A stretch of DNA of 64,000 bases from Fistulifera solaris (taxonomy: Eukaryota > Bacillariophyta > Bacillariophyceae > Naviculales > Stauroneidaceae): NCBI GenBank assembly GCA_030295235.1, contig AP026162.1, forward strand, positions 2,418,001 to 2,482,000, in the 5' to 3' direction. A model generated the notes under the pieces. The model was given only the letters and a program-made list of their open reading frames with translations. It ran no database searches and was not told the DNA's origin. The translations under genes and the position numbers were made by a program. Every line of letters begins with the position of its first letter. Within the stretch, counting starts at the first letter, position 1. This document shows, one piece after another, positions 1,768-54,740 of the stretch.

Positions 1768-3252
1768 ATGTCGATGACTCTTCCTTCGAAACAAAACAAG
1801 ACTTCACTCATGGAACTCATTCATCGCTCGCGACTTGAGCCGCAACAAATTGCCGTGCGCAAGGGCGAAGAGTTACCGACCTACAAGTTGTTGCGGACGC
1901 CCGAGACACTCGACGAGTTGAATTCGGACACCGCAATTTGGATGGAGAACGGGACACTGGTGGTCGTGGGTGGCTTTTTTCATGCCATCCATGGCGACTA
2001 CTCAGTTTCCGAAATGTTTGGAACTGAGATCTTTTGTCACCATTGAAATCTTTGGCGATGCGGACGATGCGATTGTCGAGACGGCGGTGTACTTTGGAAG
2101 TTTGCGCACTTCCAGAAAAGACGAAGTAAAAGATCTTTCCATCAAATACAGCGAGGAAATCGACTTTGACGCTGCCCGCTCGGAGCGGCTGGCTGCGTTG
2201 TTCCAGCCGGCGTCACAAATGAAGATAACATTCCTCTCAAAAGTGGACAAGTTTCTCTCGGCGGTTCTTGCAACGCGACCATATCCGATTGATTTAGAGT
2301 TCGAGACATCGCCGTTTGATGCAGGGGCATTTTTGAGCACCTCGAAAGCCGTACCACATCGTTCGGATCTCTTTCGTTGGGTTACTTGGAGCTCAGCAAG
2401 CAGCTTCAACAACGCCTGTTCCATCATCTGCATTTGTTCGAGCACCTACAGATCAACGGTCTACCGCGTGAGCTGATTCTCAAACTCTTGGCGGCACCGA
2501 TGAAAAGTATTGGTTTTACTCTGAATCACAAAACGGCGCGGATGAATGTGGCAAAGTCCGACATTGTGGCCACGATCATCCGTATCGAATCCTTCAATGA
2601 TGTAAACCCGAATCCGTTTCTGCAGTCATTTTTGAAACGAGTGACGGAGACGCGTCATTTGGAAAGCCTTTCGCTGACGTTGCATGAAGGTTATTATGAC
2701 ACCGTTACGATCGAACAGACGTTGATTCGAGCAGTGCGTGTGAATCAGAATCTGAAGCACTTGGAATTCATGGCTTGCGAACATCAATGGGGAAGATGCA
2801 TCCAGCAGCTCTTTGTTGTCGCGGAAACTCATGAAAGCCTGCGTTCCATGAAGATCAAAAGCTACCCGGATGGTTACGACCCCCAGTACAAGTGGCTGAA
2901 ACGGTTGCTGACACGAAATCGGTATCTGAAGGTGACCGATATTCTTTACGGTGAAATCGAAGCTGACGAAGAAACCTTTCGCATCTATAATTTGAATCAG
3001 TTCTTTCGCGATTCGAAGAAACTCAAAGAAGCGCCGGCAACCATTCGACCGTCTCTAGTGGGAATGGCTTTGACGGATGAGTACATGAACGACCACCAGC
3101 GTACGGGGCTCTTGTTGTCCGATCACGTCGATGTATTGTGTAAGCTGGTGCACCCGGTAGTGAACTTTGGTGAAGAAATCGTCGGTGAAGTGGATATGGA
3201 GGATGAAAATTTGTCATCGGCTGCAGCGTTGCGGAAGAGAAAGACCACGTGA
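1768..3252 (+). CDS. LRR/RNI-like family protein, copy A (type I), two frameshifts
   Basis: First member of the window's LRR-like family. The N-terminal block (ELIHRSRLEPQQIAVRKGEE, then PTYKLLRTPETLDEL and WMENGTLVVV) is in the frame starting at 1768. The middle block (EIFGDADDAIVETAVYFG through ATRPYPIDL) is in the next frame. The C-terminal LRR-like part (LESLSLTL, NQNLKHLEF, DPQYKWLKRLLTRNR, LNQFFRDSKKL) is back in the first frame. The two switches coincide with a 6-T run (1975-1980) and a 5-T run (2330-2334). The protein would be close to the intact copy at 5717-7234 in length. It ends in a basic RKRK cluster, possibly a nuclear localisation signal. The molecular function is unknown. It belongs to the type I subgroup. 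Confidence 0.6.
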
Positions 3253-3702
3253 AGTGACACAATCCGTAATCCGTAGTCAATGCTTGATACACCTATGATC
3301 GAAAAGTAGCGCACATTATATCTCTATATTTCTAGGCGTTCTGGCTTTCCGATTGCTTTAGATGTAGGATGTAGTTGGTTTCTTCGTTTCATCCTCGCGA
3401 AAAACTAAAGAGCCACGCGACCCGAAGCCCTTTCTTATTCCATTCCTCTACTGCCTCTACATCTACAAAGTATTCACCCAAGATTCCCCAAATGGAATCA
3501 CGATTTAGTGTCGTACCAGCATCAAAAAGCACTTTCTGGGGTACAGTAATGACCAGTGACCTTTTTGGACAGAATGACCGATTTTTTTCGCACACGGGAC
3601 AAGAAGCCGCATTTCGGTGATGTCAATCGAAAATCGAAGTGCACTTTTGCATTCTCTCTTGTACAACACAAGTAAATCATTTCTTAGCGGTTACTAAACA
3701 TC
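3253..3702. other. Intergenic spacer between copies A and B
   Basis: About 450 bp separate the stop of copy A from the start of copy B. Small ORFs occur on both strands but match nothing recognisable. No repeat or RNA gene was seen. Confidence 0.4.
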
Positions 3703-5311
3703 ATGTCGAGTGCAATCGATGATTCCTTATTCGAGTTGATTCCGGAATCCCAAGTCGCGCCCGATCAAGTCACCAAGTATCGCAGCAATGGCGAAGTATG
3801 GCCGGCTTACAAGTTTCGGAGAACTCCAGAAAGCGTCAGCGATTTCGGCGTGAGCAACTTCGGCGAAAGCAAGCCTGAGATCTCAGTGCTACAAGAAAAC
3901 GGAACACGTATTTTGATGGTTGATTCCTATATCGAATGGTATTGCGATGCCATAGCCATTGATCCAGCTACATTTCGCTTCAAACGTAATGTGAAACTCG
4001 CCAAGGATGAACGGTGCTGTTTATTGTTCTTGGACGAATGGAATTTCGCAATCATCGGGACATCCGATCATGCGATTGCGGAGACGGCTACGTTTCTCTG
4101 GAGCTTAAAAAAGACGGTGGTTGGATGTGAGAATCTTGGGTCCGAAGAATCATTTTGATTTCAGCGTCGTTTCACTCGACCAGCTGACTGTTCTGTTTCA
4201 ATCCCGCCCGCGAATGGCGATCAAATTGCAGGTACACAACATTAACCCCGATCAGTCTCGTTTTCTAGCGGATTACCCAGATCGGCTTGATTTGACCTTG
4301 GATCTTTCGAGTGAGGCGTTTGCTGATGGCGGTGATACGTTTGTGGATGTGTTGCTAGAAAGAGAATCTTGGTTTGGTAACTTGACGTTGTTCAACAAAG
4401 ACTATTCAAACAATGAGAATTTTGATCTTCTCCTCCAAGCAGAAGCGCTCGACTCATTAGTTGTGCCATGCGTGCACTCGCCAGAGCTAGTACACCAGGT
4501 TTTTTCTGCATTGGTGAACGAAATTAACGTGACGATTGAAGTTCCAAGAGTTCTGGGTCTCGACTGGACGACAGTAGATATAACTCCGAAGGACATTGCC
4601 GTTAGCTTTCAATTGTTCTATGAATCCGAGGATCAGACTGAGTTTGTGTGCTCCTTTTTGCGTCGGCTGGCGGAGCTGGGGAATTTTCGGAAGTTTGACT
4701 TCAGTCTGTCCCACATGCGTCGAGAGCTGCCCAGGAGGGTAGCCGACGCGCTAGTTGATGCTTTAGTTGCAAACCAAGGATTGGAAGAGCTGGCACTGCA
4801 TCGATCGTGGGAAGCAACGCCGTATTTTGACTCCATAATCAAAGCTGCCGAACGCCATGAAGAACTTGTCTTTCTCAGAATTGATTCATACCCAAAGAAG
4901 ACCGATCCGCAATATGCCATGCTAAGAGGTCTTTTAAACCGGAACAGAAGTATTCGAGTGGTCGATTATGATTTCGAAACGGTGACAAATGGCGATGAGA
5001 TTGATCGGTTGTATGCATTCAACCGTTTCTTTCAAGACTTGCAAAGCTTTCCAATGGAGACTCTTTCATTGCAATCATCACTTTTAGGTGAAGCGTTAAC
5101 TCAAAAAGCTGCTAGTGACTTTCGATGGTCTTCGTTTCTGATGGCGAATCATATGGACTCTCTATGCGAGCTAGTGCAGTATTCATCGCTTCTGTCTTCG
5201 GATACACACGATAATGACACCCCTGAGTGGCCGGCCGACGTTGAGCATGTACTTGCACGTAAACGCAAAATAGGATGTCTGTCATCTCGCCCATGCAAGC
5301 CAAAGCGGTAA
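3703..5311 (+). CDS. LRR/RNI-like family protein, copy B (type II), one frameshift
   Basis: The first frame (3703-4158) carries the type II N-terminus: LFELIPESQVAPDQ, PAYKFRRTPES, and the highly conserved IIGTSDHAIAETATFLWSL. The second frame (to 5311) carries FDFSVVSLDQLTVLF, the block SRFLADYP and FADGGDTFV, and the LRR-like C-terminal part ELALHRSW, LVFLRIDSYPKKTDPQYAMLRGLLNRNR, RLYAFNRFFQDLQ and FLMANHMDSLCELVQYSS. The switch falls at a 6-A run (4107-4112), where five A would join the frames. The tail ends in basic clusters (ARKRKIG, KPKR). Nothing else is broken over about 530 residues, so this is either a functional gene hit by a sequencing error or a very young pseudogene. Biochemical role unknown. 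Confidence 0.65.
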
Positions 5312-5716: not shown

Positions 5717-7234
5717 ATGGCGATTAATCTAGAAAGAGCCCCAGAGTCACTTTTCGGCTTGATTCCACCCTCCCAGTATGCGTCGAGGAAGAAAGCCGGC
5801 GCAAAGGACAGCAAACTGCCCCTCTTTCAATTCTTACGAGTACCTCGAACGATCGAAGAGCTCGAGCCGTACCAACATGGCGTCGTCGTTTCCATGGACA
5901 ACGGGACAATGATATATATCAACAGCGGAAAGAGAACGTCACCAATTCGTGGTTTCGAAAAGTCGTTCACGGTATCCAATTCTCATGTATGTGTTGACAT
6001 AATGCGCGATTCCGATGACTCGGTTGTCGAGACGGCTGTTCTCTTTGGCACCCTGGAGAACACCGACGAGAAAGTTACTTTCGGTTATAACAAAAATATG
6101 AACATGGATTCCACTCGCGCCGATCAACTCGCTTTTATGCTTGACAAAAACTGTGAGAAGAAAATGTGGTTCGACCATACCGATTTCAATCAAGCAGCTC
6201 TGAAAGTTATCGCTACAAGGCCGTACCCGATGGACCTGACCTTAAAATATTGCTTTTTGGATTTTCACGCTTTCACTCATCACCTTGAGGAACGAAGACT
6301 ATCCTTTGGATCCTTTCATTCTATGAATGAATCGCTAGATGAAGAGGAAGTCAGGCCGCTCTTCAACGAGAGTTTTCACGTTAATCTTCTGCCGGTTGAT
6401 CTTGTCCCGAAAATCTTAGGCGCTCCCACGAAAAGTGTCGGATTCTCTTTCATCAACGACGACATTCGGTTATTAGATGTGGTGAATTGCCCTAAAGCTA
6501 TTCGAATCGACTTCGTGTACGAGGAGTTTCCAACAGAGTTCTTGCAATCCTTCTTTGACAAAATTCACGAGTCAGGTCATTTAGAGAGCCTTGAACTCTT
6601 TTTCTTCAGTGACGGACCAGTTCCTAATCATGTCGGAAAGGCATTGCTTGCTGCGGTCGAAGCCAATAGGAAATTGAATAACCTGGTTTTGGCCGATTGT
6701 GGTAGTGATTGTGATGCTTTCGTAAAAGATCTTTTTACGGTCCTCGAAAATCACCAAGAACTGCGTACGTTTGGAGTTTGTCGTTATCCCGTGCGTCTCG
6801 ATCCTGATTTTCTGTGGATGAAGCGACTCCTCGAAACAAATCGAAACTTGGAAATCACGGATACGGATAAGACGAAACTGAGATTTGGCGACGATGAAGT
6901 GCACAATATTATTTCGCTGAACCGCTTTTTTCGTGGATCAAAAAGCTTGATGAGAAAGTTGATGCCTCTCCGATTATCGCTCGTAGTAGCCGCATTGACC
7001 TACAAAGCCGCGCACGATTTTGAGCGCGCCGGGTTACTGTTGAATGATCATTTAGACCTTTTCATTGAGCTTTTGGACGAGAGAACATCCATTGCTTCAA
7101 GGGAAGCTATTGCGGAAGAAATGACGGTTGTAGATCTCCCACCAAATGCTGCTTCCGTAGCCAGCGCTGAGAGTAGTGGGGGACGCCCGCGCAAGAGGAA
7201 GATTGATTCGTCAACTCCTGACGGCACAGTATAG
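5717..7234 (+). CDS. LRR/RNI-like family protein, copy C (type I), intact
   Basis: Single open frame of 505 residues from the ATG at 5717. An upstream in-frame ATG at 5636 would add 27 residues with no counterpart in other copies. Order of blocks: LFGLIPPSQYASR near the start; QFLRVPRTIEEL with SMDNGTMIYI (about 40-75); DSDDSVVETAVLFGTLE (about 100-115); ATRPYPMDLTL (about 170-180); SVGFSF; then three LRR-like units around HLESLELFF, NRKLNNLVLADC and HQELRTFGVCRYP; then DPDFLWMKRLLETNRNLEI; then SLNRFFRGSKSL. The C-terminus has an acidic-to-basic tail ending RPRKRKIDSS, a plausible nuclear signal. No signal peptide or membrane segment. The leucine spacing suggests a ribonuclease-inhibitor-like fold by inference only. 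It is the best type I reference copy here. Confidence 0.8.
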   Translation: MAINLERAPESLFGLIPPSQYASRKKAGAKDSKLPLFQFLRVPRTIEELEPYQHGVVVSMDNGTMIYINSGKRTSPIRGFEKSFTVSNSHVCVDIMRDSDDSVVETAVLFGTLENTDEKVTFGYNKNMNMDSTRADQLAFMLDKNCEKKMWFDHTDFNQAALKVIATRPYPMDLTLKYCFLDFHAFTHHLEERRLSFGSFHSMNESLDEEEVRPLFNESFHVNLLPVDLVPKILGAPTKSVGFSFINDDIRLLDVVNCPKAIRIDFVYEEFPTEFLQSFFDKIHESGHLESLELFFFSDGPVPNHVGKALLAAVEANRKLNNLVLADCGSDCDAFVKDLFTVLENHQELRTFGVCRYPVRLDPDFLWMKRLLETNRNLEITDTDKTKLRFGDDEVHNIISLNRFFRGSKSLMRKLMPLRLSLVVAALTYKAAHDFERAGLLLNDHLDLFIELLDERTSIASREAIAEEMTVVDLPPNAASVASAESSGGRPRKRKIDSSTPDGTV

Positions 7235-7247
7235 CCGGCAAAAGAGG

Positions 7248-7479: not shown

Positions 7480-7859
7480 GATGAATTTATAGTTTAAGGA
7501 CTGGAAAGCCTCGAGATTGCTCAGTATGATTGCCGACCACCTCCGGCTGTGGTCGGAAGGGCGTTTCATTATGCTATCACATCCAACAAGAAGCTAAGAA
7601 ACTTTGAACTAGACGGGATCCTGCACAAGTGGGACACTATTATCCAGGATCTTTTTGCTGCCTTGAGAAACACGAGGGACTACGAATATTTCGCATCACC
7701 CCTTACTTCCAAGAGCTCGACCCCCAGTTCGCATGGCTCAAGCAGTTGCTCCGGCGGAATCGAAATTTTGAACTCAATAATACACCCATGTGGATACTAG
7801 AAGTGGATCGTGAAAAGCACGAAATCCAGGTATTGAACCGTGCTTACCGGGAACAATAG
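7480..7859 (+). pseudogene. LRR/RNI-like family fragment, copy D (type I)
   Basis: Only the last third of a family gene can be recognised, in two frames. One frame gives NKKLRNFELDGILHKWD followed by IIQDLFAALRN. The next frame, from about 7660, gives LEKHEGLRIFRITPY, LDPQFAWLKQLLRRNRNFE and EIQVLNRAYRE. It lacks the N-terminal half and the conserved end. It is most similar to copy F (LEKHEALRTLRITPY). A decayed remnant. Confidence 0.75.
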
Positions 7860-8227: not shown

Positions 8228-9847
8228 ATGTCAAAGAGTAACGCGCCTCCACTCCTGGCTCTAATTCCGCCTACCGATCTGGAGCCGCACCAGATCGCAA
8301 CTACCAAGGAAGGTGTTCCTTTGCCTACGCACACTTTCTTGCGCCCGTTGCGAACGATCGATGAGCTTATGGTTTACGAAAACGGGGCGATTGTCTGGAT
8401 GGAAGAGTATGAGACGTTAGTCGTGATCTATCGTCGATACAATACCTTTGGCCCCCTGGATATCAAGTACTTGAAGTTCTTTCAGTTGTATTTGCAGTTT
8501 GACGAGGGAGCGGTAGGAATTCGAATTTTTGGCAGCGAAAATGGTATCATCGACTCTGCTTTACATTTTGCGAACGTCGAAGTTTCTGAAAAAGAAAATT
8601 GACTTCCATTATGATTCATTACAGCGAGCACTTGAGTTTTGACGCTAGTCATGCGATGCATTCAGGCCTCTTGCTAGACGCGTTCTCAACAAAGCGTGTT
8701 GCCCTCAATGCTGTTACCATTAATAATGTCTTGGCCCGTGTTCTCGCTACTCGGCCTTATTCGATTGTATTGACTGTGCCGAACTCAACCATGGATTTTG
8801 AAGCGTTTACGGACCATCTTCAAGGCCGTACGGCAAGTTTTGGTTCTTTGTCTTTGCCAAGTTCATTGGAGGATCACGACATGCTCCGACTTTCCGATCA
8901 TCTGCACCTCTTTGAGAGTATTGACGTCACGGATGCTTCAAGCGAATTTATGTGAAAGCTTCTGTCTGCACCCTTAAAAAAACTTTATTTCACAGTTGGC
9001 CCAAAAACAAGCGAGACGGATTGCTCGACAGTAAACATTATCCCCAAGGAGATTCAGATGCTAGTTGATTCAGCCGATGAGTTTCCGACCCGATTCGTCG
9101 TCCTTTCTCTATCGAGTGGCTCAATGCAAACATTTAGATGAATTCTTTTTGATTTCGAGAAACCTTTCCATTCCAGCGTACTCAGGAAGGGCTCTCGTGG
9201 ATGCTGTGGCCGCTAATCAAAAATTGAGACATTTGAGCTTGATTTTTTCTGGGCGTGAATTTGACCCTTCACGCTGAAAGATCTCCCTCGCCTCACTTAG
9301 CAATCACAGAGAACTTCGCACTTTTGAAGTAGCAGGGTACCCGGATCAGCTTGATCCGGAATGGTTATGGGTGAAGCAATTGCTCAAACGAAATCGGCTT
9401 ATAGAAGAGATTTTCATCTACCGTGGAAGTCAAAGGTTGCGGGACGAAATTGATGTAATTCACGCGTTGAACCGCTTCTTTCATGGATCGAACGGCTGAA
9501 GAAAGAGGAGGCGATTACTCGACCATCTTTCGTAGGAGCCGCTTTGTTTCGCAACGCCGCAGGACGATTCTCAGCGTGCTGGGTTGCTGTTGGCGGACCA
9601 CGTTGATGTAGTATGCGAGCTTTTCCACGAGGTGGATCCCGCCAGCGAGAATGTCGTGACGGAAGCGGGCTCTGAGGAGGACAGACAGATCTCATCGCCT
9701 TCCGGAAGCAGTAGAGAGCTCAAAGCGCCAAGAGAAATGATGAATTCTGAGCCTTGTATGGAGACTTGTATAGACAAATGTATAGTTCGTGTATATATTC
9801 TTTTGTTCGAATTACCGAAATACAGGATGCCCTTTACTATAGACTAG
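8228..9847 (+). pseudogene. LRR/RNI-like family pseudogene, copy E (type I)
   Basis: The start matches the family well: LLALIPPTDLEPHQIA, then FLRPLRTIDEL and WMEEYETLVVIY. The frame then breaks near 8595. It resumes as YSEHLSFDASHAM, ATRPYSIVL and RTASFGSLSL, then meets an in-frame TGA at 8953-8955. The reading continues after that stop (VNIIPKEIQ, DEFPTRF), shifts again to FLYRVAQCKHLDEF and AANQKLRHLSLIF, and breaks again before ELRTFEVAGYP, DPEWLWVKQLLKRNR and ALNRFFHGS. The tail AGLLLADHVDVVCELFHEVD is in yet another frame and ends at 9847. With several frameshifts and at least one nonsense codon this is a genuine pseudogene rather than a single sequencing slip. Confidence 0.8.
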
Positions 9848-10118: not shown

Positions 10119-11617
10119 ATGTCGTTACAAGCAAAATCGAATATGACTTCCCCATTGTTCGGTATTATACCGTCATCGGAACTCCAAGAGCACCAGATTG
10201 CAGGAAGAACGGGCAGGATCTACCGACCTACCAGTTTTTACGAGCGCCCTCGACGATCGACGAGCTGGCGCACTACCAGAATGGCGCAGTCATTTGGATG
10301 GAAGAGACTCTCGTTTTGCTGAATCACGGCGAGATATTCGAAGAGTACTCGTTACCGAAAGTTCAACTCACGGAATACTATTTCGCACTCAGCTTTCTGC
10401 TCAGTGATCACACCAAGGTCAATTGTCGGATCTTTGGCGATGTGAAAGGAGTCTTGAAGACAGCTGTCTTCTTTACCAGCTTGGAAGTTTCTGAAGGGAA
10501 GCACTTCATAAATATATCCATCAGTTATCACCGCGGCTTGGTGTTCGATTATTGTCACACGAAGGAGTTTGAGTTGTTGTTTGAATCCATCGCAAACCAG
10601 AATTATCTTTTATCCCTCTTATCTGAACGACTTTGCCACTTATTTCATTACGACACGACCATATCCGATGCATTTGACTTTCCTTGCCACCTACGTGGAC
10701 GGAGAGGAGCTGGTGACGAGTATGCAGGAACGTACGACACCGTTTGGCTCCCTGGAGTTTCACGGCATTTCGCCGATGTTGGAGGCTATACAAGAGATCT
10801 GCCGACATCTTCAGTGGTTCGAACACCTTCAATTCAGTGAATTTCCCGGTGATCTCGTAATCAAGTTACTATCCTCGAATGTCCCCAGTATCGGTTTTGA
10901 TATCGACCGCCGTACGGAAACGTTGGACCTGTCAACGGTAAACATTGTTTCCTCCAAGATTCGTCCTTTCTTCGAGCCGAGAATTTCCCACGAAATTCAT
11001 GTTATCGTTTTTGCATCGAGTGGCCGAACTAGGTCAGCTGGAATGCTTCGAATTCAACCGAACGGATGGCCCTCCGGTTCCGGACGATGTCAAGAATGCA
11101 TTGCTGGCTGCCGTGAGCGGCCAGCAAGAAACTGACCAAGCTGACGTTATCTTCGAGCGACGAATCTCTGATGTGGGACGGTCTAGTGGAAGATCTGTTT
11201 GGCGTTTTGGAAAAACACGAGGCGTTGCGCACATTGCGCATCACCCCGTATCCTACAACACTGGATCCACAGTTCGCTTGGCTCAAGCAATCGTACAAGC
11301 GAAATCGATACATCGATGTCACGGATTCATCAGGAGACAAACTGGAAGCAGACGATGAAGTAGATCAACTGCTTGCGGTAAATCATTTCTTCCGCGGATC
11401 CGAAAAGCTGAAGAAAGAGCCCACAGCTACTCGACTGTCCCTCCTAGGAGCCGCTTTAACGCATAGCGCTGCATCCGACTTGCCACGGGCTGGGCTGCTT
11501 CTGATGCACCATCTGGATTTGATTTGCGAGCTTGTGCACGAAAATGAGTCAACTGGTGAAGCAGAAGATGTCATAATGGAAATGATTGGTAGTGACAGAT
11601 ATGTCGCGCCAGCTTGA
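10119..11617 (+). pseudogene. LRR/RNI-like family pseudogene, copy F (type I)
   Basis: It opens with LFGIIPSSELQEHQIAGR in the frame of the ATG at 10119, then shifts within about 40 codons. AHYQNGAVIWMEETLVLL and CRIFGDVKGVLKTAVFF follow in the second frame. The third frame has ITTRPYPMHLTF, RTTPFGSLEF and SIGFDIDRRTETLDLSTVNIV. The next has EFPTKFMLSFLHRVAELGQLECFEF. The last (11171-11617) has LEKHEALRTLRITPYPTTLD, PQFAWLKQSYKRNRYIDV, HFFRGSEKLKKEP and LLLMHHLDLICELVHENES. At least four frame changes. Nearly the whole family architecture can still be traced. Confidence 0.8.
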
Positions 11618-11983: not shown

Positions 11984-13473
11984 ATGTCGTTCTACAATTC
12001 TCTTCTCGAGCCTCTCCCGGCATCTAAGCTCCAGCCTCATCAGATTATCAAGTTCGAAGATGGTGACGTTTTGCCTGTCTACCGATTTCGAAGAAATCTT
12101 TTGAGCATCGACTGTTTCGCGGGAGATTCTTCCATTCATTCCATTCTACAGGACAATGGTACTCTCATATCGATCACGTGTTCACGTGTGCAGTGCTATG
12201 GGCCACAAATCGTTGTTTTTGAAGACCCTGAGACCGCAGAGAAGCGGGTTGTCAAGTTGGTCGACCAAAGGTGCTTCTTTCTCTATTTCAATCAAGTGAA
12301 TTGCATGATTTTAGGAACGTCGGATCACGCGATTGCCGAGACGGCTCAGTTCCTCTAGAATCTAGAGGAAGACGATGATTCGTGGCGCATGGAAATCCGC
12401 AGCTCGAGACGTCGTTTTGATTTTGGTGTCTTTTCGTTCGCGCATCTTGCTTCTTTGCTGCGCTCACGCCCGAACATTCCAATCACATTGAGTGTTATGG
12501 GCATCACTCCCGATCAATCACGATTACTAGCGAATTACCCGGAAACGGTGAACATGCGTTTCAACGAGCTATTCTGCAATGTCTTTACCGATGAAGGGAA
12601 CACCTTTGTGAACGCTCTCGTCGAAAGAAACTCGTCGTTCGGCACTCTATGGCTATGGAATGAAAGCAATCTACAGGGTGTTACTTTCGAACGTATTCTA
12701 CAGGCAAAAGCAATCGACAAATTAGTTATGCCCACCGTCAGCGTTCAGCAGATACCTCGTGTTCGGCTCTGGTAAAGGAGGTCGACTTCACTATTGATGC
12801 CCGAGACATGAAGGCATTTGATTGGTCGAACATGAACATTGTTCCGAAGAAGCTGTCTCTGGAGTTCAATTGTGCTCATAGCTCTAACGAATCTGACGAG
12901 TCTATTTGCATGTTCTTCTTCCGTCTCGCTGAACTAGGCGATTTTACCAAATTCGATTAGAATTTCGAAGGAAACGGCAACATACCCACTCCAGTTTTCG
13001 AAGTGCTGATGTGTGCCGTCGAGGATAACCAAAAGCTGAGAGAATTGGCCTTGCATCGACTGTCTTACAAAGTTTGTCCGTTTCTTCAGCAAATTTTTGG
13101 AAGAGTCATGGCACGCCACCAAGGATTGCATTCCTTGAGTATTTCTGATTCAATCTTGCGAATGGTGGATCCCAAACATACTTTGTTGAAGCAGCTCTTG
13201 AATCGCAACAGGAAAATCCAAGGGATTGGTTTTGGAGACGCCCATGATAAAGTGGGCTACTATGAGACCGAGATTCGTAAGCTTTATGCGTTCAACCGAT
13301 TCTTTCAAGACTTTGCGCATCTACCGATGGAATCACTGTCTCTTGTGCCGTCGCTCCTCGGAAACGCGTTGACCGGCTGTGCTAGCCGTGACTTTCGATG
13401 GTCTGCTTTCCTGATGGCGTACCATTCGGATGCTCTGTGTCAACTCGTGGAGAACTCACCTTGCCTTCGATGA
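11984..13473 (+). pseudogene. LRR/RNI-like family pseudogene, copy G (type II)
   Basis: It starts with LEPLPASKLQPHQIIKFEDG and reaches MILGTSDHAIAETAQFL. A TAG then stands at 12356-12358, where other type II copies have the Trp of FLW. The same frame continues with FDFGVFSFAHLASLL and SRLLANYPETV to 12775, then shifts. A second TAG lies at 12958-12960 (after FTKFD). The C-terminal part is clean: DNQKLRELALHRL, HQGLHSLSIS, LLKQLLNRNRKI, KLYAFNRFFQDF and FLMAYHSDALCQLVENS, ending at 13473. Two nonsense codons at non-homopolymer positions make true inactivation likely. Confidence 0.8.
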
Positions 13474-30622: not shown

Positions 30623-32148
30623 CTAGCCAGAGTAAAATGCATCTGAACGAAGCAGCGATGGGTATTGTACCAGCTCACATAAAGCATCGGTATGATTCGC
30701 CATCAGAAAAGCCGACCGTTGAAAATCACCGCTTGCACTGCCGGCCAGCGTCTCACCTATAAGCGGTGGTAATAGTGATAGTGTCTCCCGCTTGAGACAC
30801 TGGCAATCTTGATAGAAACGGTTGAATCGATAGATTCGGCCTACTTCATCACCATCTGTCACTCTGTTTCCATGGCGGTCAAACACTTCAATGAATCTGT
30901 TCCGATTTAGCAGTTGCTTTAGCATAGCGTAGCCTGGATCGAACTCCTCCGTATACTCGGCAATTGTAAAGCGGCGTAATCCTGCATGGCTTTCCATCGT
31001 GGCGAATAAAAGATCGCGGTGTTCGACAGTTTGGGTATGCGCATAGCGCAAATGCAACTCTTCTAAACTGTGATTGGCGGATACAGCAGAAAGCAGCTCA
31101 TCGAAGACGCTGCAGGGAATGATCGCGTGCAACTTGCGAAACATTGTGACTCCAAGCTTCCTAAAATCTACCAGTTCGGCGAGTCGTCGAAAAAAAGAAC
31201 ACATAAAGACGATGTGAGTCTCGACATCTAGGTAGGACAACTCCACGGTCAGTTCGTTCGGAACAATGTCGACACGAGACCAATCCAGTTGCAAGCAACT
31301 CTCCACTTTCATCGAAAAGCCAACACCTTTGCTAGAAGAGGACAAGAGCTGCAGTATTTGTTGCGGTGTAGCGCAACCAAGCTCGAAGTTACTGAACTGT
31401 TGTAGCCGTTAAAAGAAAATGAAAGCTGTCATTTTGGCGTTTTCCTCAACCTTCCACAACTTGAGGCTCCCAAAGGGCGAATCCCTTCAAGAAGACTATT
31501 CACAAATAATTCACCCCCGTCCGAGAAACAGCGGAGAGAATCTTCTAAAGTCAGAGAGATAGGAAACGGCATTTGAGCTAAAAACACGGATTGCACAGCA
31601 CTGATATTCGACACTTCCAGCGTGATCTCCATCATCGGAATGTCTCAAATAGAAGCGCCAAGTTGTTGTGTCGAAACAATGCCAAAATTAAAATGTTCAT
31701 TCCAGCATCGGACCTCCCGAAACCGGCTATCGGTGTCGAGTTCCCATAGAAAAGCCGCTGTTTCCGCAATGGCGTGGTCGGACTTTCCAATGACAGTACA
31801 GCGCAGAGAACCAGAACAGAACCAAAAGCACCGGTTGTTACCCAAGGTAACGCATCGGATCGAACTTGTGTCTGGATCATGATAGACGAGCAATCCGATC
31901 CCATGCACCGGCCGGTTCATCTGTCAGAATGAGTGTTTGATTGTCTTGCCATATTGACCATAAGCCTTTCAGCTGCTGAAGGTCTTGGATGGAAGGAATC
32001 CTTCGAAACCGGTAAGTTGGCAACGCGTCCCGACGATTGCGTACAACAATGGGAACGCGTGCTGCAACGCTAGTTGAGTCTGAGGAACGAGTTCGAGCAA
32101 CGCTGATTCTCCGTTTGCAATGCTCTTTTCGATCCGTGATGCATCCAT
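30623..32148 (-). pseudogene. LRR/RNI-like family pseudogene, copy I (type II)
   Basis: The start is at about 32148 (MDASRIEKS, then LLELVPQTQLALQ). The frame shifts within 40 codons. TYRFRRIPSIQDLQQL and WQDNQTLILTD follow, and a second shift near 31910. VIGKSDHAIAETAAFLWEL and FNFGIVSTQQL come next, then a third shift to EITLEVSNISAVQSVFLA and CFSDGGELFVNSLL, and a fourth. The last part, 31345-30623, is open: GVGFSMKVESCLQLDWSRVD, LHLRYAHT, HAGLRRFTIAEY, GYAMLKQLLNRNRFIEVFD, FNRFYQDCQCL and FLMANHTDALCELVQYPS. Too many lesions for a single error; probably a true pseudogene. Confidence 0.75.
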
Positions 32149-39234: not shown

Positions 39235-39238
39235 GTTG

Positions 39239-43267: not shown

Positions 43268-44018
43268 CGAATAACAAAGTCAATTCTAACACATTAATGA
43301 TTATCTTACAATTGTTGTTGCATCGCAACAAGTCATTCCGATGACGTCGACTTTTCAACCAACTCGTGTCCTAGTCAGTAACGTATACTTGAACGAGACT
43401 GCCCATTCATCTTCACTAGTAGACTTAAACCAGCTTAGTAAAGATTATTGCTTCTCTCTTTTGAAAGCTTTCAGCTGATTTCTTGACAAGAATTATTAGA
43501 GCAGCCCGGTCTTTGCCAACAATTCGCGACTTCCCACCAGGTACACTGCTTTTTTGGAATTGATCCCCTCTGCTAGGTTCAAAACAAGTGCTCTGGTCCA
43601 ACAGTAGACGTGTGAGTGTGCTCAGTTTTAATGTAGAAAGATCAACCTTGAGGGCTAGAAATGAACGGCGTATGTTCAAGTAAACATGAAATCTGCTCGA
43701 GCTCGGCTAGAACGTCCGTGTGGTTCGCGAGTAGAAGCCCGGAACGCTTAAAAATCAGTCACCAAACACGGTGATATTTGTGCAAGACCCTCGCAACCCT
43801 ACAAGCAGTCATTTTCAACGCGTATATTCAATCAATCTTGTCGGCGTATGCTACTCTTCTTCCAAAAAGTTGGGGTTAGAAGACTACCTTAGGCTGGCTT
43901 AAAACAACCACAGGGACCCACACTTAGTATCAACAAAGAAGCATTCTGAGAGAGTTCGTAATGGTTAGTCTCTTATGCTCGTGATTTCTCAAGAGCCATC
44001 ATTGTCCGCTTTTATCAC
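43268..44018. other. Spacer between Copia element and copy J
   Basis: About 750 bp without a recognisable gene. Short ORFs only. No repeat structure noticed. Confidence 0.4.
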
Positions 44019-45551
44019 TCAAGCATGCATCGTAAAAAACGATGAATACTGCGCCAACTCGCATAGGGCATCCGTATGATTCGCCATCAAAAGCGCATTG
44101 CGCTGAAAATCACCTCTTGCACTGCGAGCCAGCGCCTCATTGACTAGTGGTGTTACAAATGACGTTGAGCTTTGTGCCAGGCTTTGGGAGCCCCGAAGGA
44201 AGCCGTTAAATGAGTAAATTCGGTCAATCTCGTCACCATCTGTTATCCTTTCTCCGAAATAATTAAGCACTTCGATCGACCTATTCTTCTTGAGCAGTTG
44301 TTTCAGCATTGCGTGGGTAGGATCCACCTTTTCTAGGTACTGGTCGACTTTGAAGCGGCGCAATCCCTTGTGGTGCTCCATTGCTGCGTATATCTCACCG
44401 AGATGTTTGTCGTATTCGATAAAAGTGTAGCGCATGTAAAGTTCTTCCAAATTTTGGTTGGCGTCTATAACACGAATGAGCTCCTCCGCAATACTTTCGG
44501 GTATGCCTCGTACCCACTTGGGGCAAAGAGCAAGTTTAAGCTTCACAAGATCTCCTAATGCAGCGAGACGACGGAGAAAGGAAGCGATAAAGTCGACGTG
44601 AGCCACCGATTCACAAGATGAGAATTCAACCGACACATGTTTCGGAACGATTTCAATTGTAGTCCAATCCAGCCTCAAGGAGTCGCTGATATCAATAGTG
44701 AAGCTTACTGCTTTCGCTGAAGCCAAGAGCAGCTCTCGTATCAGCAATGGTCCAACGAAGCAAGACATTTCAAGGTTGTCGATTGATTCGCACAGCAGAA
44801 GCCGTTGGAAGCAAACGCCAAGAGGTGCATGTATTTCCCCACCTAGCCTTAGACTACCAAAAGGTAATTTTCTTCCATGGAGTGCTTCCACAAACGCGTA
44901 ACCCCCATCTGAAAAAGAGCCGAGCGAATTCCCTAATTCAAGCGCAATGGGATGCGGTACCTGGGTAATATATTTCGCTTGGGCTGGGCTGATGTTCGAT
45001 ACTATTAATTCTGTCTTGGACTGCCTGTTTCGGAGAAGGAGATCAAGCTGCTCATTCAACACGGCACCAAAGTCAAATCGTTCATTGCAATGTACGTGCA
45101 TGATTTGAATATTGCTTTCTAAACCCCAGACAAAGGCTGCTGTCTCCGCAATAGCGTAATCTGACCTTCCAATGATTGTACAACCAAAAGAGCCGGATTT
45201 GGTATAAATGTATTTTTCATCATAGGCCAGGGTGACCTGCTGTATCAAACTTCCTTCGAAGGCATGATTGCCCTGAAAAAAGAGCTCGCGGTCCACGCAA
45301 CCGAAGGACACACCAGTCACAATGAGTGTATTGTTAGCTTGCCGAATCGCCAATAAACCAGTAAGTTGCCTTAGTTCTTCAGCACAGGGAGTTCTCTTAA
45401 ACTTGTAAATGGGCAATACTGGTCCATTACGATACTGCAGGTACGGCAGATGTCGTAAATTGAGTCGTGACGGAGGAATTTCTTCCAAAACGGACTCGTT
45501 TGCGGTTAGCATTCTTTCTAACCCACGAAGCTCGTCTATCAAACACGCCAT
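44019..45551 (-). CDS. LRR/RNI-like family protein, copy J (type II), intact
   Basis: A single open frame of 510 residues and the reference copy for type II. Order: LEEIPPSRLNLRHLP near residue 22; YKFKRTPCAEELRQLTGLLA; QANNTLIVTGV; IIGRSDYAIAETAAFVWGLE (about 125-145); FDFGAVLNEQLDLLL; VSNISPAQAKYITQVPHPIAL; FSDGGYAFVEALHGR and FGSLRLGGE; then AVSFTIDISDSLRLDWT and EIVPKHVSVEF; then LRR-like units around LGDLVKLKLALCP, NQNLEELYMRYTF and HKGLRRFKVDQY; then HAMLKQLLKKNRSIEVL, GERITDGDEIDRIYSFN, and LLMANHTDALCELAQYSS at the end. No signal peptide, membrane span or catalytic motif. Unlike type I it has no basic tail. The function is unknown; an LRR-type binding role is inference. Confidence 0.82.
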   Translation of the reverse strand: MACLIDELRGLERMLTANESVLEEIPPSRLNLRHLPYLQYRNGPVLPIYKFKRTPCAEELRQLTGLLAIRQANNTLIVTGVSFGCVDRELFFQGNHAFEGSLIQQVTLAYDEKYIYTKSGSFGCTIIGRSDYAIAETAAFVWGLESNIQIMHVHCNERFDFGAVLNEQLDLLLRNRQSKTELIVSNISPAQAKYITQVPHPIALELGNSLGSFSDGGYAFVEALHGRKLPFGSLRLGGEIHAPLGVCFQRLLLCESIDNLEMSCFVGPLLIRELLLASAKAVSFTIDISDSLRLDWTTIEIVPKHVSVEFSSCESVAHVDFIASFLRRLAALGDLVKLKLALCPKWVRGIPESIAEELIRVIDANQNLEELYMRYTFIEYDKHLGEIYAAMEHHKGLRRFKVDQYLEKVDPTHAMLKQLLKKNRSIEVLNYFGERITDGDEIDRIYSFNGFLRGSQSLAQSSTSFVTPLVNEALARSARGDFQRNALLMANHTDALCELAQYSSFFTMHA

Positions 45552-45829
45552 AGAATAGTGGGGTCGCTAGTTTGTTGGAGGATCTAGAGTCGGCGCATAC
45601 CTGATTATGTCAGTATCACAATCAAATTATGATTTCCGCGCATTTTTTGTTACAAATTTTATTGCATCATCATGGTTTTTATTGACGACTCCTCATCATA
45701 CAAACAAGTCGCTTGTCGCATAGAGATTTAATTCGCGTTTCGCGTTTCATTTCTAGGTGCCAATAAAGCGCTGCGACCTGCGACCTGATGAGGGTTTACT
45801 GATTATCAGTCCCATTTACAAGTGACTAA

Positions 45830-46195
45830 CTATGTGACCAACACCTGGTAAGCAGTCTTGATATTTTGTCTCGTAACCCTTCATGATCCTCCATAGCTGC
45901 AAATAAATCCTTGAGATTTCCTTCAAATCACTGAACGCAAAACAAAGCCATAGTTCCTCAAAATTCTGATTGGCGACTACAGCGTGAACTACCTCTTGTG
46001 CTATACCGTCGGTGCATGATGGTGTCCAAAGTATGATCGAGGTGCAGTTCAAGGCTCACAATATGTTTCACTTCGGAGATACAACGAAGAAACGAATTGA
46101 TAAAGTCAATGTGAGCCTCTTACTCGCAACGCGAGGATTGTACTATCAGTTTTACGGAAGCATGTCAACAAAAGACCAATCCATTCACTGGTAAG
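45830..46195 (-). pseudogene. LRR/RNI-like family fragment, copy K (type II)
   Basis: A short remnant. AHIDFINSFLRCISEVKHIV with VSLELHLDHTLD (about 46110-46020) is in one frame and VVANQNFEELWLCFAF is in another, with LAAMEDHEGLR-like sequence after that. It corresponds to the middle LRR-like part of copy J. Both ends are missing. Confidence 0.65.
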
Positions 46196-46199
46196 GATA

Positions 46200-46546
46200 A
46201 AGAAAAATGGGAAATAGAATCAAGACGTTTGTAATGTTTCGAAGTCCTCTTATTAGGTGACAAGACTAATCGCTGTATTCGAAAGCGTGCAAATCCTTAT
46301 AAGATGCAGTCCCGTGCCCAATTAACCTTTTGTTGTGGCCAGTGCAGCCAGACAGGGCCCACCTTGGCTTTCGAAAATCGCATGTACTTGGTAACAGTCA
46401 CCTCATGACCCCACAGACGATTCGCAATATTCTGAACTCCCAGAAGCAAAATTGATTCATCGGATCTAGATGCAGTGGTTGAGAGACGCTCACAATCTTC
46501 GTCACTCGTTCTTCTGGCCAAACTTTTCGGCTTCAAGCAAGCTTAC
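46200..46546. other. Spacer with an unassigned minus-strand ORF
   Basis: A 79-codon minus-strand ORF (46297-46536) was noted but shows no family motif. Nothing can be named here. Confidence 0.35.
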
Positions 46547-46810
46547 CTAAATCCCTCCTCCTGCGACTGAGGGTGATGCCATCTCGGTCATGAGCTCACA
46601 TAATACGTCGGTGTGATCCGACAATAGTATCCCAATACGAGGAAAGCTGCCTGCAGCACTATGTGTCAACGCAGCGACAACAAGGAAGGGACGGAGGTGA
46701 TCCAGTTGTTCCCGTAGAAGTAGTGTTTTACGGAAGTATCGGTTAAGCATGATAACATCCTGAATGTCTTTGACCACCATTAACATTGGATCAGAGTCGC
46801 CACGTCGCAC
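46547..46810 (-). pseudogene. LRR/RNI-like family C-terminal fragment, copy L (type I)
   Basis: Carries only the end of a type I copy: IMLNRYFRKTLLLREQL, RPFLVVAALTHSAAGSFPRI and ILLSDHTDVLCELMTEM, with a stop at 46547. It abuts the tail of copy M, which is type II, so a breakpoint between two different copies lies at about 46800-46815. Confidence 0.7.
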
Positions 46811-46814
46811 AAAG

Positions 46815-48206
46815 GGGACGTATTGTTTGCCATCAGAAATGCCAATCGTTGAAAATCATTGCCAGCACTGTGGATTGAAGCTTCGCAAACAAGCGCTGGC
46901 ATTATTGACAGGGTTTCCTTTCTAAGACCTTGGAAGTCCCAAAAGAACTGATAGAATGCATAAATTCAATCGATAGTATCCTCGTCGGTCACTCTTTTCC
47001 ATCGCTGTCTACAATTTCAATATTTCTATTTTGCTTCAGCAACTGCTTCAGCATCTCATAGCATGAATCAAGTTCGGTGGGGTACTCGTCAATTTTTCAG
47101 ACAGCGTAGACTCTCATGTCGCCCATAGTCGTGAACAGTGAACACGTCCCGAAGCTTTGTACCGAGTTTTCGCAGCACGAAAGACAAGTGCAACTCCTTT
47201 AATCCTTGGTTTGCAGCAACAGCATGAATCAGCTCCTCTACGGCTCTAGTGGGCACTTGTGGAAACCAAAATGTAAACTCGAGCTTCACGAAATCTCCCA
47301 TTCCGGCAAGACGCCAGAGAAACGAACACAAAGAGTCGGTGTGGTCCTCCTCATCAAACAAATCTAGATCCAGTGACAGCTCTTTGGGGATAATGTCAAC
47401 AGATGACCAATCCTTCCATAAATCATCCCCTTCGCAGAGAATACGAATACACTTGACCGAAGCAGTGAGAAGCTGCCGTATTTGACTCGGGGTCCCGACT
47501 CTCAACTCGACTTGTTCAATGGCTTTGGCTTCCAAAAGACGTTGAAACGTGTCACTTTGTGACTCCAGTATTCTCCACAGCTTCAGAGGCCAAAGAGGAA
47601 TCTCTTCGCAGAAGCGATTCGACGAATGCATTACCACCGTCCGAAAACGAGTCAGAAGATTCCTGCAAGTAGAGAGATATGGGATAGGGAAGCTGGGCAA
47701 TAAAATCAGATTGCATTGGGCTTATGGTCGACACATCCAATGCAATTTGCGCGTTTTCATGTGTTCGGAAAAGAACTGCAAGCTGTTCTAGTGAGAAAAC
47801 ACCAAAGTTGAACTCGCCACAGCTCGTACAGGTCTCTGGCTTCAATGTTATGAAATAACTCCCACAGAAAAGTTGCTGTTTCTGCAATAGCGTGATCTGA
47901 TGTTCCAACGATGGTATATCGAAGAGAACCAACACTGAACCAAAGAAACCTTTCATCGTCGGCCAAGTCTATAAAGCTTGTACATCCCTTTTTGGAGTCT
48001 TGCTGGTCAAGATATGATATCGATCGTCCCTCAATTTTAGCCGGATTATCTGTCACAATGAGTGTTCGATTTTCTTGCCAAATCGACCACAAACCATTCC
48101 GCTGCTGAATGTCTCGGCTAGTGGGTGGCTTTCGAAATATGAAAGTCGGTATTACCGCCCCATTTTCGTCCACAACTACTGACATCTTTGTAGCTTGAGC
48201 TGACAT
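46815..48206 (-). pseudogene. LRR/RNI-like family pseudogene, copy M (type II)
   Basis: Starts at 48206 with MSAQATKMSVVVDENG, then FRKPPTSRDIQQRNGLWSI, QENRTLIVTD and TIVGTSDHAIAETATFLWEL. It shifts to FGVFSLEQLAVLF, VSTISPMQSDFIAQLPYPIS and FSDGGNAFVESLL, then shifts again to LLTASVKCIRILCEGDD, DWSSVDIIPKELSL and ANQGLKELHLSFVL, and stops at 47089. Further on, LLKQ-like sequence, TDEDTID, a stop, IYAFYQFFWDFQGLRKETLS and FLMANNTSPLCDV can be read to about 46815. At least three frame breaks and two stops. Confidence 0.72.
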
Positions 48207-48733
48207 TCTGGAACAAGGTCAAGCAAAGATTGAAATTGGTTCGACATTTTCTTTTCTATTCACTTTTGCCTTTCACACGGATACCATCCGGGGTGGCGAA
48301 CCACGGGCCATTCGGTGAACTGTTTCAAAGAGGGTCGCAAACGGCTTTCGAGATCAGTCAAGAAGCTGAAAAAGCTCTTCAAACTACTTAATATGTTACA
48401 CTTCATAGATCAAAGTCCTGCAAGATCCACTTTTTATGTTGCTTCTCTGCTACCGCGATTTGGGCTGTCGCCTCATACTCATCTCGCACATTTTTTGGTA
48501 CAAGTATCTGTGAGTCACGCTTTGATTAGTGCGAGTCATAGATAAGGAAGACGAGGTGCCCAAAACGTGAAAACGATTCGACCAAAAGAGTATCAGATTC
48601 CATATTGATAAAATAACGGATGAATTAGACATGGATGGAGTACGGTGTTAAAACGCTACGGCGAACCAGTCTACATTTTGGTAAAGCTTCATTGTAGGCT
48701 GCACCCGAACCGGGCACACTCAAAGGTGTGAAC

Positions 48734-50274
48734 TTATTTCCACTGTCGCTTTCGGCGTGGTCCTAGCTCCGAATCTGCTGGATTACCCTCGTCGTCGTCG
48801 TCTCCCTTCCGTTTCAAAAGACTGCTATCATCGTGAGCTTCATTCGCCAAATCGATCTCGTGCAAAACTTCGCACAAGATGTCTGCCTGATCTCCCAATA
48901 ATGACGCGGCACGCTGGAAATGGTTTACGGCGCCATAAGTCAAAGCGGTTACCAGGACTAACGTTCGGATAGACAGCGGCTCTTTGGTCACCATGTGCGA
49001 TCCATGAAGGAATCGGTTCAATGCGTAGAGTTTCTCGAGTTCGCGATCGTACTTCCAATCCAAACCGTGGTTATTAGTCACATGCACGCGTCGATTTCGT
49101 TGCATCAAGTGCTTGAGCCACTTGAATTGAGGGTCGAGCATTTTAGGGTAAACACTTATACTGAGAACCGTGAGTTTGTCGTGCTTCTCAATAACGTCAA
49201 AGAGATCTTTAATGAATTGGTCATCCAGTGCCTCCCCCGAAACTGGTAACTTGAGAGACTTCAGGTTTTTGCTTGCACCAAGAAGACCAAGTAACGCCAT
49301 TCCAGCTTCAGCAGGGATGGGATCATCTACACATAGAGAGAGCTCGAGACTTTCCAAATGGCCTAGTTGGGCGACTCGGCGAAGAAAAGATAACATGAAT
49401 GTTGTTGGAAACGCGGCTTCGTATAATGTTTGGATGCGAATTTCTTTGGGAAGAATGTCCGCTGCCATCAAATCAAAATCGTTGTTTTCTTCACCGACTG
49501 TGAAGCCCACACTTTTCACGGGCGCGGACAGCAGTTGTAAAATTAGATCATTGGGCAATCTGTTGACGCGGAAGTGTTCGAATAAATTCAGTTGATGGAA
49601 AATCGTCTTAAAAAGACTCGTCGCAAGGGACTGTTCAGATGTCAGAGAACCAAAAGGTGTTGTACGGCCTTGAAAATGCTTCAAAAAAGCATCGTTATCA
49701 ATTGACGCGGTTTCGAGGTATAAATTGAGTGGGTACGGGCGTGTTGCAATCATCGCGGAAACGGCACTGTTGAGCTTAGAACCAATGAAACATATTTTCC
49801 TGGACTGATTTTTATCCATAATCAGAGCAAGCTGTTCCGCACGGGCATCATCAAAGTCCAAGTTATTCTTGTAGCTGATCTCGATCTGTTTTTGGAAGCT
49901 CTCCAATGTCCCAAAGAAAGTAGCCGTTTCTAAAATGGCATCATCCGAGTCACCATGGATTCGTATGCACACGCCCGGATGGAGCTCAAAAATTTAGTGA
50001 ATCTGGTAGGCGGTGGAAATCGACCGCCATTGTTGATGTAAGCCAACGTTCCATTGTCCATCCAAACCAGCACGCCGCCCTGGCCAGTGCTGTATGGCTT
50101 GAGCTCTTCGATCGCGGAGGGCGCTCGTAAAAACTTGTACAAGTGCCATTCCTTACCCTTTTCCGTCACTGCAAACTGGTTCGCTTGGAATTCAGAAGGT
50201 AAAATTAAGGCTAGTAATGAATTTGGGTTCCTTCCTGGAGTGATCGCCATTGTCATTTGTCTCGAATCAATCAT
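48734..50274 (-). CDS. LRR/RNI-like family protein, copy N (type I), one frameshift
   Basis: Starts at 50274. The first frame carries LLALILPSEFQANQFAV, YKFLRAPSAIEELKPY and VWMDNGTLAYINNGG and runs to FTKFL. The next frame then continues without a break to 48734: CIRIHGDSDDAILETATFFGTLE, DARAEQLALIMDKN, MIATRPYPLNLYLE, RTTPFGSLTS, LFEHFRVNRLPNDL, SVGFTVGEEN, LESLELSLC, ASKNLKSLKLPVSG, DPQFKWLKHLMQRNRRVHV and LYALNRFLHGSHMV. The tail is acidic then basic (KRKGDDDDEG, RRKRQWK), a likely nuclear signal. The break is a 5-A run (988-992 of that kilobase, plus strand) that would need six. Probably a functional gene if that run is miscalled. Confidence 0.7.
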
Positions 50275-50551
50275 TTTTATTTTTATAAGACTGTTATCGC
50301 ACAGGAAGAATGTTAAACTACTCTCTAGGGCATAGTTTTGGTGTCCTAAGACATTTTTAGTGTACTAAGCAGTACCGTATTGAGAAAATAATGGTACTTT
50401 CATACGCGCATTGACTTTCACAAGTTTAATTTGGTAAACGCAAAACACAAATGGAGCTACATTTTTCAAACATAGGAATTCTCTCATTTCGGCGAGGTAT
50501 GTTTGCGAAGAGCGGCGATGTCGCGAAATACTAAGATGTTAATTACGTCTC

Positions 50552-50583
50552 GAGACGTCTCAGAGACGTCTCTGAGACGTCTC
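50552..50583. repeat. 32-bp perfect palindrome within a GAGACGTCTC cluster
   Basis: The 32 bases are their own reverse complement, built from GAGACGTCTC and CAGAGACG units, and are preceded by a second palindrome ACGTCTCGAGACGT. A related block starting ATGTTAATTACGTCTCGAGA recurs at about 50870-50910 (also found at about 50536). Cruciform-forming or a remnant of an inverted-repeat element. Confidence 0.75.
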
Positions 50584-50589
50584 AGAGAC

Positions 50590-53250: not shown

Positions 53251-53259
53251 TTGGGATAG

Positions 53260-54740
53260 CTAAAATGAATACTGCATCAGCTCGCATAGAGCTTCAGTAT
53301 GATTCGCCATCAAGAATGCAGACCGGCGAAAGTCGTGACTAGCGCATTGGGTCAAAATCTCTCCCACCAGTGACGGTAACAACTCCATCGATTCTTCCAA
53401 GAGATCCTGGCAATCCCCAAAGAAGTCATTGAAGGCATAGAGCCGGTCTATTTCGTCGTCGTCTGTAAATGTGTACCAATTGTAGTCGATCACTTGAATA
53501 TTTCTGTTCGTCTTTAGTAGCTCTTTCAACATGTTGTACTGGGGGTCGGTCTCAGCAGGATATGCATCTAATCTGAGGAACTCCAATCCTTCGTGACGCG
53601 CCACTGCCGCGAATATGTCCTGGAGATACGGAGTAACTTGACCATGTGGTTGATAAAGGGCCAGTTCCTGCAGATTTTGGTTCGCGTCAATTGCATCGAT
53701 CAGCGCGGTAACAACCCGACTGGGAACACTGGAGTCGCTCTCATAGCACAAATCGAAATCGAGTTTCACAAAATCTCCCAATTCGGCAAGGCGACGGAAA
53801 AACGAGCAAACACAATCTGTATGAGCCTCCGAATCATATTCGACTTTGAATGCAATAGTCAATTCTTTGGGCACAATGTTCATTCTGGACCAATCTAGAC
53901 CCTGTGCCGCGTCAACTTCGATCGTCAAGTCGACTTCGGCTACCAAAGCGGAAAAAATCAGATGTATCTGCTGCTGTGGTCCAACATATGGTAATACAAG
54001 CTTGTCAATAGCTTCCGCTTGTAAAAGGAGACGGAAATTTTCATTTTGTGTGTAATCCTTGGCAAACAATACCAAAGCCCCAAACGATGATTTCCTTTCT
54101 CGAAGACAATGAACAAAAGTGTCACCACCGTCAGCAAAAGCCTCGGCGGATAGATCTAAAATCAAGTCTATTCTATCCGGATATTCAGCTAGAAATCGCG
54201 ATTGAGCCAAGCTAATGTTGGTTACATCCAACTTGATACGCACATTCGGGTGTGTTTGGAAAAGACCGTTCAGCTGGTCGAGTGAAACGACACTAAAGTT
54301 AAAACGACGAGTGGAGCAACAAATTTCGATGCGCCACGACTCATCTTGTAAGCTCCACAAAAGGCAGCCGTCTCTGCTACAGCGACATCGGATTTGCCAA
54401 CAATTGTGCAGTTCACGTGGTTGTACATGAGGAAAAGACATCGGTCATCGTCGGCGAGGGTAACCAATCCTCCCGGATTCTTTGCGTCGACGGCTTCGAA
54501 TGAAACAGCATCCGACCCTATTTCCTGTAGAGGACCCACAAGTATACGTGTATCATTCGTTTCCTGTAAGATAGAAAAGATAGAGTGACATTCTACCAAC
54601 TCTTCTAGACTCTCTGGAGCTCGGAGGAATTTGTAGGTCGGCCAGTAATCACCATCTTTGTAGCAAATCCTCTGATGCTGATGGCGCTTTAATTGAGACG
54701 CCGGAATAAGCTTTAGCAGCTGAGCGTTTGGAGATGACAT
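53260..54740 (-). CDS. LRR/RNI-like family protein, copy O (type II), one frameshift
   Basis: Starts at 54740: LLKLIPASQLKRHQHQR, YKFLRAPESLEELVE, and TIVGKSDVAVAETAAF before the break. The next frame, open to 53260, carries WSLQDESWRIEIC, FNFSVVSLDQLNGLF, VTNISLAQSRFLAEYPDRID, FADGGDTFVHCLRER, FGALVLFAKDY, LDWSRMNIVPKELTI, ANQNLQELALYQ, HEGLEFLRLDAYP, DPQYNMLKELLKTNR, LYAFNDFFGDCQDL and FLMANHTEALCELMQYS. The break is the 4-A run 54359-54362 (plus strand), which would need five. It is closest to copy B. Apart from that base the gene is whole. Confidence 0.7.

Follow-up and report, generated by a model that had tools for sequence, protein, structure and literature searches.

A large family of leucine-rich-repeat-like genes and pseudogenes in the diatom Fistulifera solaris

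Among described proteins, the ribonuclease inhibitor RNH1 and the RanGAP/Rna1p proteins, both built of ribonuclease-inhibitor-like leucine-rich repeats (LRRs), offer the nearest comparison for the gene family considered here. The family is clustered at positions 1789-54740 of a 64-kb stretch of contig C1 of the diatom Fistulifera solaris (C1:2418001-2482000; hereafter the window). In structural alignments, the F. solaris proteins are ~10-17% identical to RNH1 and RanGAP/Rna1p, to which they add an N-terminal beta domain, a C-terminal helical cap and many diverged copies per genome. The LRR domains of NLR proteins (NLRP3, NLRP5, NLRP9) are a second point of reference, with the difference that neither NACHT nor NB-ARC is found among the Pfam matches of 22 family members at E-values up to 1. 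In diatoms, excerpts of PMC7335047 name LRR-containing proteins first among the tandem duplicates of the pennate Seminavis robusta, and passages of PMC9054022 report an enrichment of LRR domains in Nitzschia putrida. Both likenesses are by description. Brown algal ROCO LRR proteins, which combine a ROC-COR GTPase with LRR exon shuffling, are presented in excerpts of PMC11378527 as candidate immune receptors and a proposed stramenopile recognition repertoire. In contrast, each open copy of the F. solaris family is one uninterrupted frame, and the 22 members gave no match to a GTPase domain. A literature search of partial coverage found no account of this LRR family.

The F. solaris genome is given as 50 Mb with 46.1% GC in the excerpted text of PMC5485032 and as allodiploid with paired chromosomes in portions of PMC13276009 and PMC5935921. 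The assembly used here comprises 51.7 Mb in 61 contigs, and the GC content of the window ranges from 41 to 49% in 2-kb bins. A guide target given in PMC13276009 for both homoeologous apt genes of F. solaris has two exact matches in this assembly, located at nearly the same position on contigs C38 and C39; with up to two mismatches permitted, the reversed pattern used as a control matched nowhere.

Extent and predicted fold of the family

A profile hidden Markov model (HMM) built from the 22 members (alignment A1) matched 42 segments when the window was translated in six frames and 0 segments in a reversed-window control. Frameshift-aware alignment resolves the 42 segments into 16 copies or fragments, comprising 12 long copies (A, B, C, E, F, G, H, I, J, L, M and N) and four fragments (D, Jx, K and K2). 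Copies A-G lie on the + strand at 1.8-13.5 kb and the remainder on the - strand at 28.8-54.7 kb. A sequence-only reading of this DNA had described a cluster of up to 15 copies extending over 1768-54740; the cluster and its end stand, while the count becomes 16 and the start moves to 1789. Its conserved sequence blocks do recur in fixed order in alignment A1, and its tally of two open copies and five more that are off by one or two bases agrees with the present one: C and J are uninterrupted, B, H, M and N are each broken once and A is broken twice. The lesions in the other long copies number three (G), four (F), six (E and I) and seven (L), so that 10 of the 12 long copies are broken.

As that reading supposed, the genes belong to a multigene family, and it extends far beyond the window, with at least 202 places, fragments counted, on 28 of the 61 contigs. 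Seven protein queries, each scoring 81-85 of 418-570 candidate places, gave a union of 180 distinct places on the 28 contigs after adjacent pieces were merged. The HMM, run on a subset of the genomic DNA, found 107 copies or fragments, of which 24 were outside the 180-place list; the list thus recovers 78% in the scanned DNA, and the union of 202 is a lower bound. Place counts are highest on C17 (30), C30 (23), C42 (21), C1 (18) and C2 (16). Fifty-nine long copies were compared, 47 of them from fetched loci, a set biased to good matches. Twenty-nine of these carry no lesion, 18 carry one and 12 carry two to seven. Pairwise identity among the 59 sequences has a median of 30% (5-95% range 25-43%), and for 45 of them the closest relative within the set is at 36-56% identity. 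In a midpoint-rooted FastTree of the same sequences, the 12 window copies, three homoeologs on contig C2 and four copies on C40/C41 form one group (support 0.98), within which two interleaved subclades are seen: A-C-E-F-M (1.00) and B-G-H-I-J-L-N with the C40/C41 copies (1.00). One locus elsewhere (L062:1444-3786, - strand) has a 781-residue open frame in which a partial family copy is fused in frame to a full one. Outside the genome, searches from six short peptide patterns, which reach close relatives only, found no relatives of copy J in viral contigs and none of locus L029 in prokaryote genomes; a search of plasmids likewise found no relatives of J.

The family was originally characterized as LRR-like, and structure prediction agrees. 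The AlphaFold (AF2) model of copy J is a confident LRR horseshoe of ~12 ribonuclease-inhibitor-like repeats with a predicted local distance difference test score (pLDDT) of 85.9. Its elements follow a beta-alpha order, and most of the 12 predicted LRR strands alternate hydrophobic and variable positions. The top Foldseek and VIA rows for the model, PDB folds included, are LRR proteins; the first ten Foldseek rows have low TM-scores of 0.28-0.40 over the query, and the sequence-profile match to ribonuclease inhibitor is weak (E 0.0026). Curated libraries give less. For eight open frames of the window, the best Pfam match is only LRR_14 at a sub-threshold E of 0.039. The 22 members yield single-member matches only, with best E-values of 0.014 in Pfam (LRR_R13L1-DRL21 being sub-threshold at E 0.11), 0.1 in PHROGs, 0.032 in NCBIfam and 0.0046 in PADLOC; the last three return no LRR match, and in none of the four libraries does a curated LRR model exceed its cut-off. 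A known domain identifiable by sequence was accordingly rejected, as the library matches are not repeated across members and were taken as chance or sub-threshold LRR. Pfam matches of the 22 members also include no F-box and no kinase domain. The earlier statement that no named domain covers the N-terminal 300 residues needs correction, because the predicted horseshoe includes most of them: the LRR fold would begin at about residue 105, though no Pfam model reaches its cut-off there. Only for the first ~100 residues, modelled mainly as strands, did Pfam, PDB and BFVD give nothing convincing.

Variability, selection and frame breaks

The distribution of sequence variability over the predicted horseshoe was examined in 58 aligned copies, broken ones included, with exposure judged by the hydrophobic fraction in the alignment. 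Exposed positions of the LRR strands, which line the concave face, have a mean entropy of 3.07 bits (n=36), compared with 2.52 bits for exposed helix positions (n=53; p=3e-5) and 2.60 bits for loops (n=100; p=1e-3). This order holds at four exposure thresholds, and in terms of the model no part of the solenoid varies more than the concave strand face. Of the exposed classes, the helix positions of the cap vary least, at 2.35 bits. Among seven close pairs, the per-site ratio of nonsynonymous to synonymous differences (pN/pS) ranges over 0.48-0.71 in classes of the N-terminal domain (at least 39 sites), 0.25-0.43 in LRR classes and 0.19-0.37 in cap helices. Since no structural class reaches a pN/pS of 1, the pattern is evidence for concave-face diversity and not for positive selection.

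Selection on individual copies was estimated as the ratio of nonsynonymous to synonymous substitution rates (dN/dS, NG86) between C1 and C2 homoeologs. Copy J, the only window pair open on both sides, has a dN/dS of 0.26 (p=1.6e-12). Six of seven control genes tried in the same region (one had no match) gave 0.04 for bioB, 0.05 for YebC, 0.07 for rpS17, 0.14 for a P450-like gene, 0.24 for an RNase H-like gene and 0.33 for SelR. On these sequence comparisons, J is under purifying selection, with weaker constraint than conserved housekeeping genes. Low values are also found for M (0.40, p=2e-4), I (0.26-0.29), F (0.21), D (0.35), H (0.39), G (0.37), B (0.32 over 262 codons) and A (0.13 over 161 codons), as well as for three pairs outside the window (L041/L055 0.27, L017/L026 0.32, L048/L052 0.19). 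At the other end, N has a dN/dS of 0.74, the C41 tandem pair L012/L016 has 0.80, which is indistinguishable from neutral (p=0.24), and L, which behaves as a pseudogene, reaches 1.09. The sequence-only reading had pointed to dN/dS as a check on whether any copy is maintained, and purifying selection on J, L041/L055 and L048/L052 indicates that several open copies are. Together with the concave-face variability, this is compatible with the recognition role that it had suggested.

Copies with at least four lesions are most likely pseudogenes, and the single-break copies are a different matter. One reading, which is compatible with a functional family and to which we attach slightly less than even confidence, is that the assembly introduced the breaks in B, H, M and N and that the underlying genes are intact, giving the window about six working genes and not two. 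Nine of the 16 single frame breaks fall at runs of at least four equal bases, compared with 20% of background positions (p=0.0014). YebC/TACO1, a conserved gene whose C1 copy lies at 23013-23894, has a one-base run-length frame break on C2 that reflects either an assembly error or the loss of one homoeolog; further neighbouring genes also show frame differences between the two contigs, the P450-like gene most of all. An assembly named Fsolaris_ONT_v03 is listed in an excerpt of PMC12159174 and may be the source of the window. On the other side, real slippage also prefers runs: they hold 12 of the 32 breaks counted in multi-lesion copies (p=0.016), a share that does not differ from that of the single breaks (p=0.24), so that assembly indels are indistinguishable from real slippage. 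The break in M, moreover, is common to both homoeologs, whose dN/dS is nevertheless low. Because the assembly may carry homopolymer indels, a caveat that rests on six neighbouring gene pairs and the run context, a single break is no proof of a dead gene. Introns were rejected as a cause of the breaks in B, H, M, N and L016, where the frames run on without lost family sequence; that other members are single open frames also argues against them.

The position of the breaks is itself uneven. Nine of the 16 single breaks, with M and its homoeolog counted apart, lie at profile positions 81-127, near the border of the N-terminal domain and the LRRs. Copy N and L016 share a break site on different contigs, as do L051 and L061, and these pairs are only 35-42% identical. 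Programmed frameshifting was considered from this clustering; slippage or assembly error is simpler, and the fetched set may favour whole C-terminal parts.

Possible roles of the family

A soluble, intracellular family of ~500-residue LRR proteins, whose variable concave faces meet differing partners and which serves in part as a nuclear recognition or adaptor repertoire, is the explanation that we favour, with about even confidence. A full-length member would consist of a small N-terminal beta domain (approximately residues 1-100), ~12 ribonuclease-inhibitor-type LRRs and a helical C-terminal cap, to which part of the family would add a flexible tail bearing a basic motif of the nuclear-import type. 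The concave face of each copy may hold a different partner protein, and the better conserved cap may be common to copies. Many copies may act in the nucleus, and the repertoire as a whole would most plausibly detect or sequester variable proteins inside the cell.

Hydropathy values, the sole indicator used, argue against a signal peptide and a membrane segment in nearly all members tested. Twenty-one of 22 members stay below 1.6 and have no membrane-like segment, the other being the C2 homoeolog of J, and 26 of 29 N-termini stay below 2 and have no signal-like stretch. A basic motif resembling a nuclear signal occurs in 14 of 34 C-terminal tails, all 14 among the 22 tails of at least 25 residues, and in 11 of the 14 it lies inside the last nine residues. 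The motif pattern was defined after the tails had been viewed; shuffles of the 22 long tails gave a mean of 1.8 tails with the motif and a maximum of 7 in 5000. It is present in B and C and absent from J, H, N and the tested C40/C41 tails.

The family could alternatively supply substrate receptors of ubiquitin ligases, in the manner of F-box/LRR proteins, with the concave face selecting the substrate and another part docking on the ligase. This is unlikely given the lack of an F-box among the Pfam matches. The F-box is helical, while the N-terminal domain is predicted mainly as strands and the conserved helical module is C-terminal. Between an immune-type detector and a ubiquitin-ligase adaptor, however, nothing in the present data separates the two, and a decaying family is also a live alternative. 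In this last case, a family that became numerous through old tandem duplication would retain little present function. Such decay would account for the broken state of most long window copies, for the lesions (one or more) in 30 of the 59 long copies and for the dN/dS values of L, N and the L012/L016 pair. It is nevertheless quite unlikely in view of the 29 lesion-free copies, even from a set that favours good matches, and the purifying selection on J, L041/L055 and L048/L052; part of the single breaks may also be assembly errors.

A bolder form of the recognition repertoire, which we regard as distinctly improbable, is that a unicellular alga keeps an intracellular, largely nuclear non-self repertoire of ~200 LRR genes and pseudogenes, with no nucleotide-binding domain, an N-terminal fold not seen before and concave-face diversity like that of immune LRRs in plants and animals, serving for instance as a defence against viruses with nuclear replication. 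Mating or species-recognition factors are highly improbable: clustered variable binding proteins suit recognition generally, but in nearly all members tested hydropathy points to neither a signal peptide nor a membrane segment, part of the family has nuclear-like basic tails and no link of the locus to mating was seen.

Although it occupies 202 or more places in a single genome, the family is unnamed in the four family libraries tried. It resembles a repertoire for partner recognition in a free-living unicellular organism, and intracellular recognition in such organisms is, to our knowledge, poorly known. With paired allodiploid clusters in one nucleus, gain, loss and selection are measurable copy by copy, and the CRISPR editing method for F. 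solaris described in the consulted part of PMC13276009 makes function testable in the same species.

The copies, their homoeologs and neighbouring sequence

The sequence-only reading had proposed birth and death of copies in the cluster, and presence and absence of copies between the homoeologous C1 and C2 clusters bear this out. Over 31 kb, C2 matches the window in collinear order, the blastn pieces that score above 150 bits being 71-94% identical. In the tree, the two homoeologs of J, of I and of M each form a pair; with the median identity of 30%, this suggests that births are mostly old and that recent change in the cluster has been mainly loss, as judged from sequence. The cluster would have arisen by old tandem duplication followed by separate erosion in the two subgenomes through deletions, insertions, mutation and probably also recombination of neighbouring copies.

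On the + strand, copy A (1789..3153) has two frame breaks and copy B (3718..5221) has one at profile position 119. Copy C (5717..7231) is fully open with 505 residues from the chosen ATG and ends in an RKRK basic tail motif. It has no counterpart in the C2 cluster, where 0.6 kb stands against 2.6 kb in C1, a difference that may have arisen on either contig. Fragment D (7510..7850) covers profile positions 311-426. Copy E (8234..9688), with four frame breaks and two stops, has only about its last 30 bases represented on C2 (1.7 kb in C1 and none in C2), where the change may again lie on either contig. At this site on C2, the end of D joins the end of E directly, with 7 bases common to both matches, which is the pattern expected from recombination between neighbours. 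Copy F (10134..11569) has four frame breaks and its C2 homoeolog has one; copy G (11996..13458) has one frame break and two stops.

On the - strand, copy H (28797..30271) has one frame break at profile position 91, and copy I (30638..32038) has six, compared with two in its C2 homoeolog. Fragment Jx (43654..43752; profile 455-487) precedes the modelled copy J (44022..45512), which is fully open with 497 residues from the chosen ATG. Fragments K (45871..46119; profile 287-371) and K2 (46580..46771; profile 413-476) are followed by the putative pseudogene L (46801..48247), which has six frame breaks and one stop. Copy M (48821..50232) carries its single, shared break, and copy N (53266..54740) has one at profile position 110 and only a decayed fragment as its C2 counterpart.

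Within this half of the cluster, 44044-50278 differs from its surroundings. Its homoeologous identity is 91-94%, compared with 71-87% elsewhere in the window (a segment at 36.3 kb aside), and its dS is 0.11-0.22, compared with 0.33-0.61 in neighbouring genes; a recent exchange between subgenomes is possible. Inside copy L, C2 has a 2.1-kb stretch that is not in C1 and is flanked by imperfect ~15-base repeats. Window positions 36346-37590 are 93% like part of it, and Pfam gives no match for a 318-residue open frame at 36204-37157; the two stretches are perhaps an undescribed mobile element.

The C1 stretches at 15.3-21.6 and 32.1-44.0 kb are largely absent on C2. An open frame for a Ulp1-type (C48) protease at 15810-16391 lies in the former, a stretch of about 6 kb. 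Recognised by eye from their motifs, 37701-42684 and 57664-60680 are presumably pieces of Copia-like retroelements, and at 57.7-59.9 kb both strands encode the same protein stretch.

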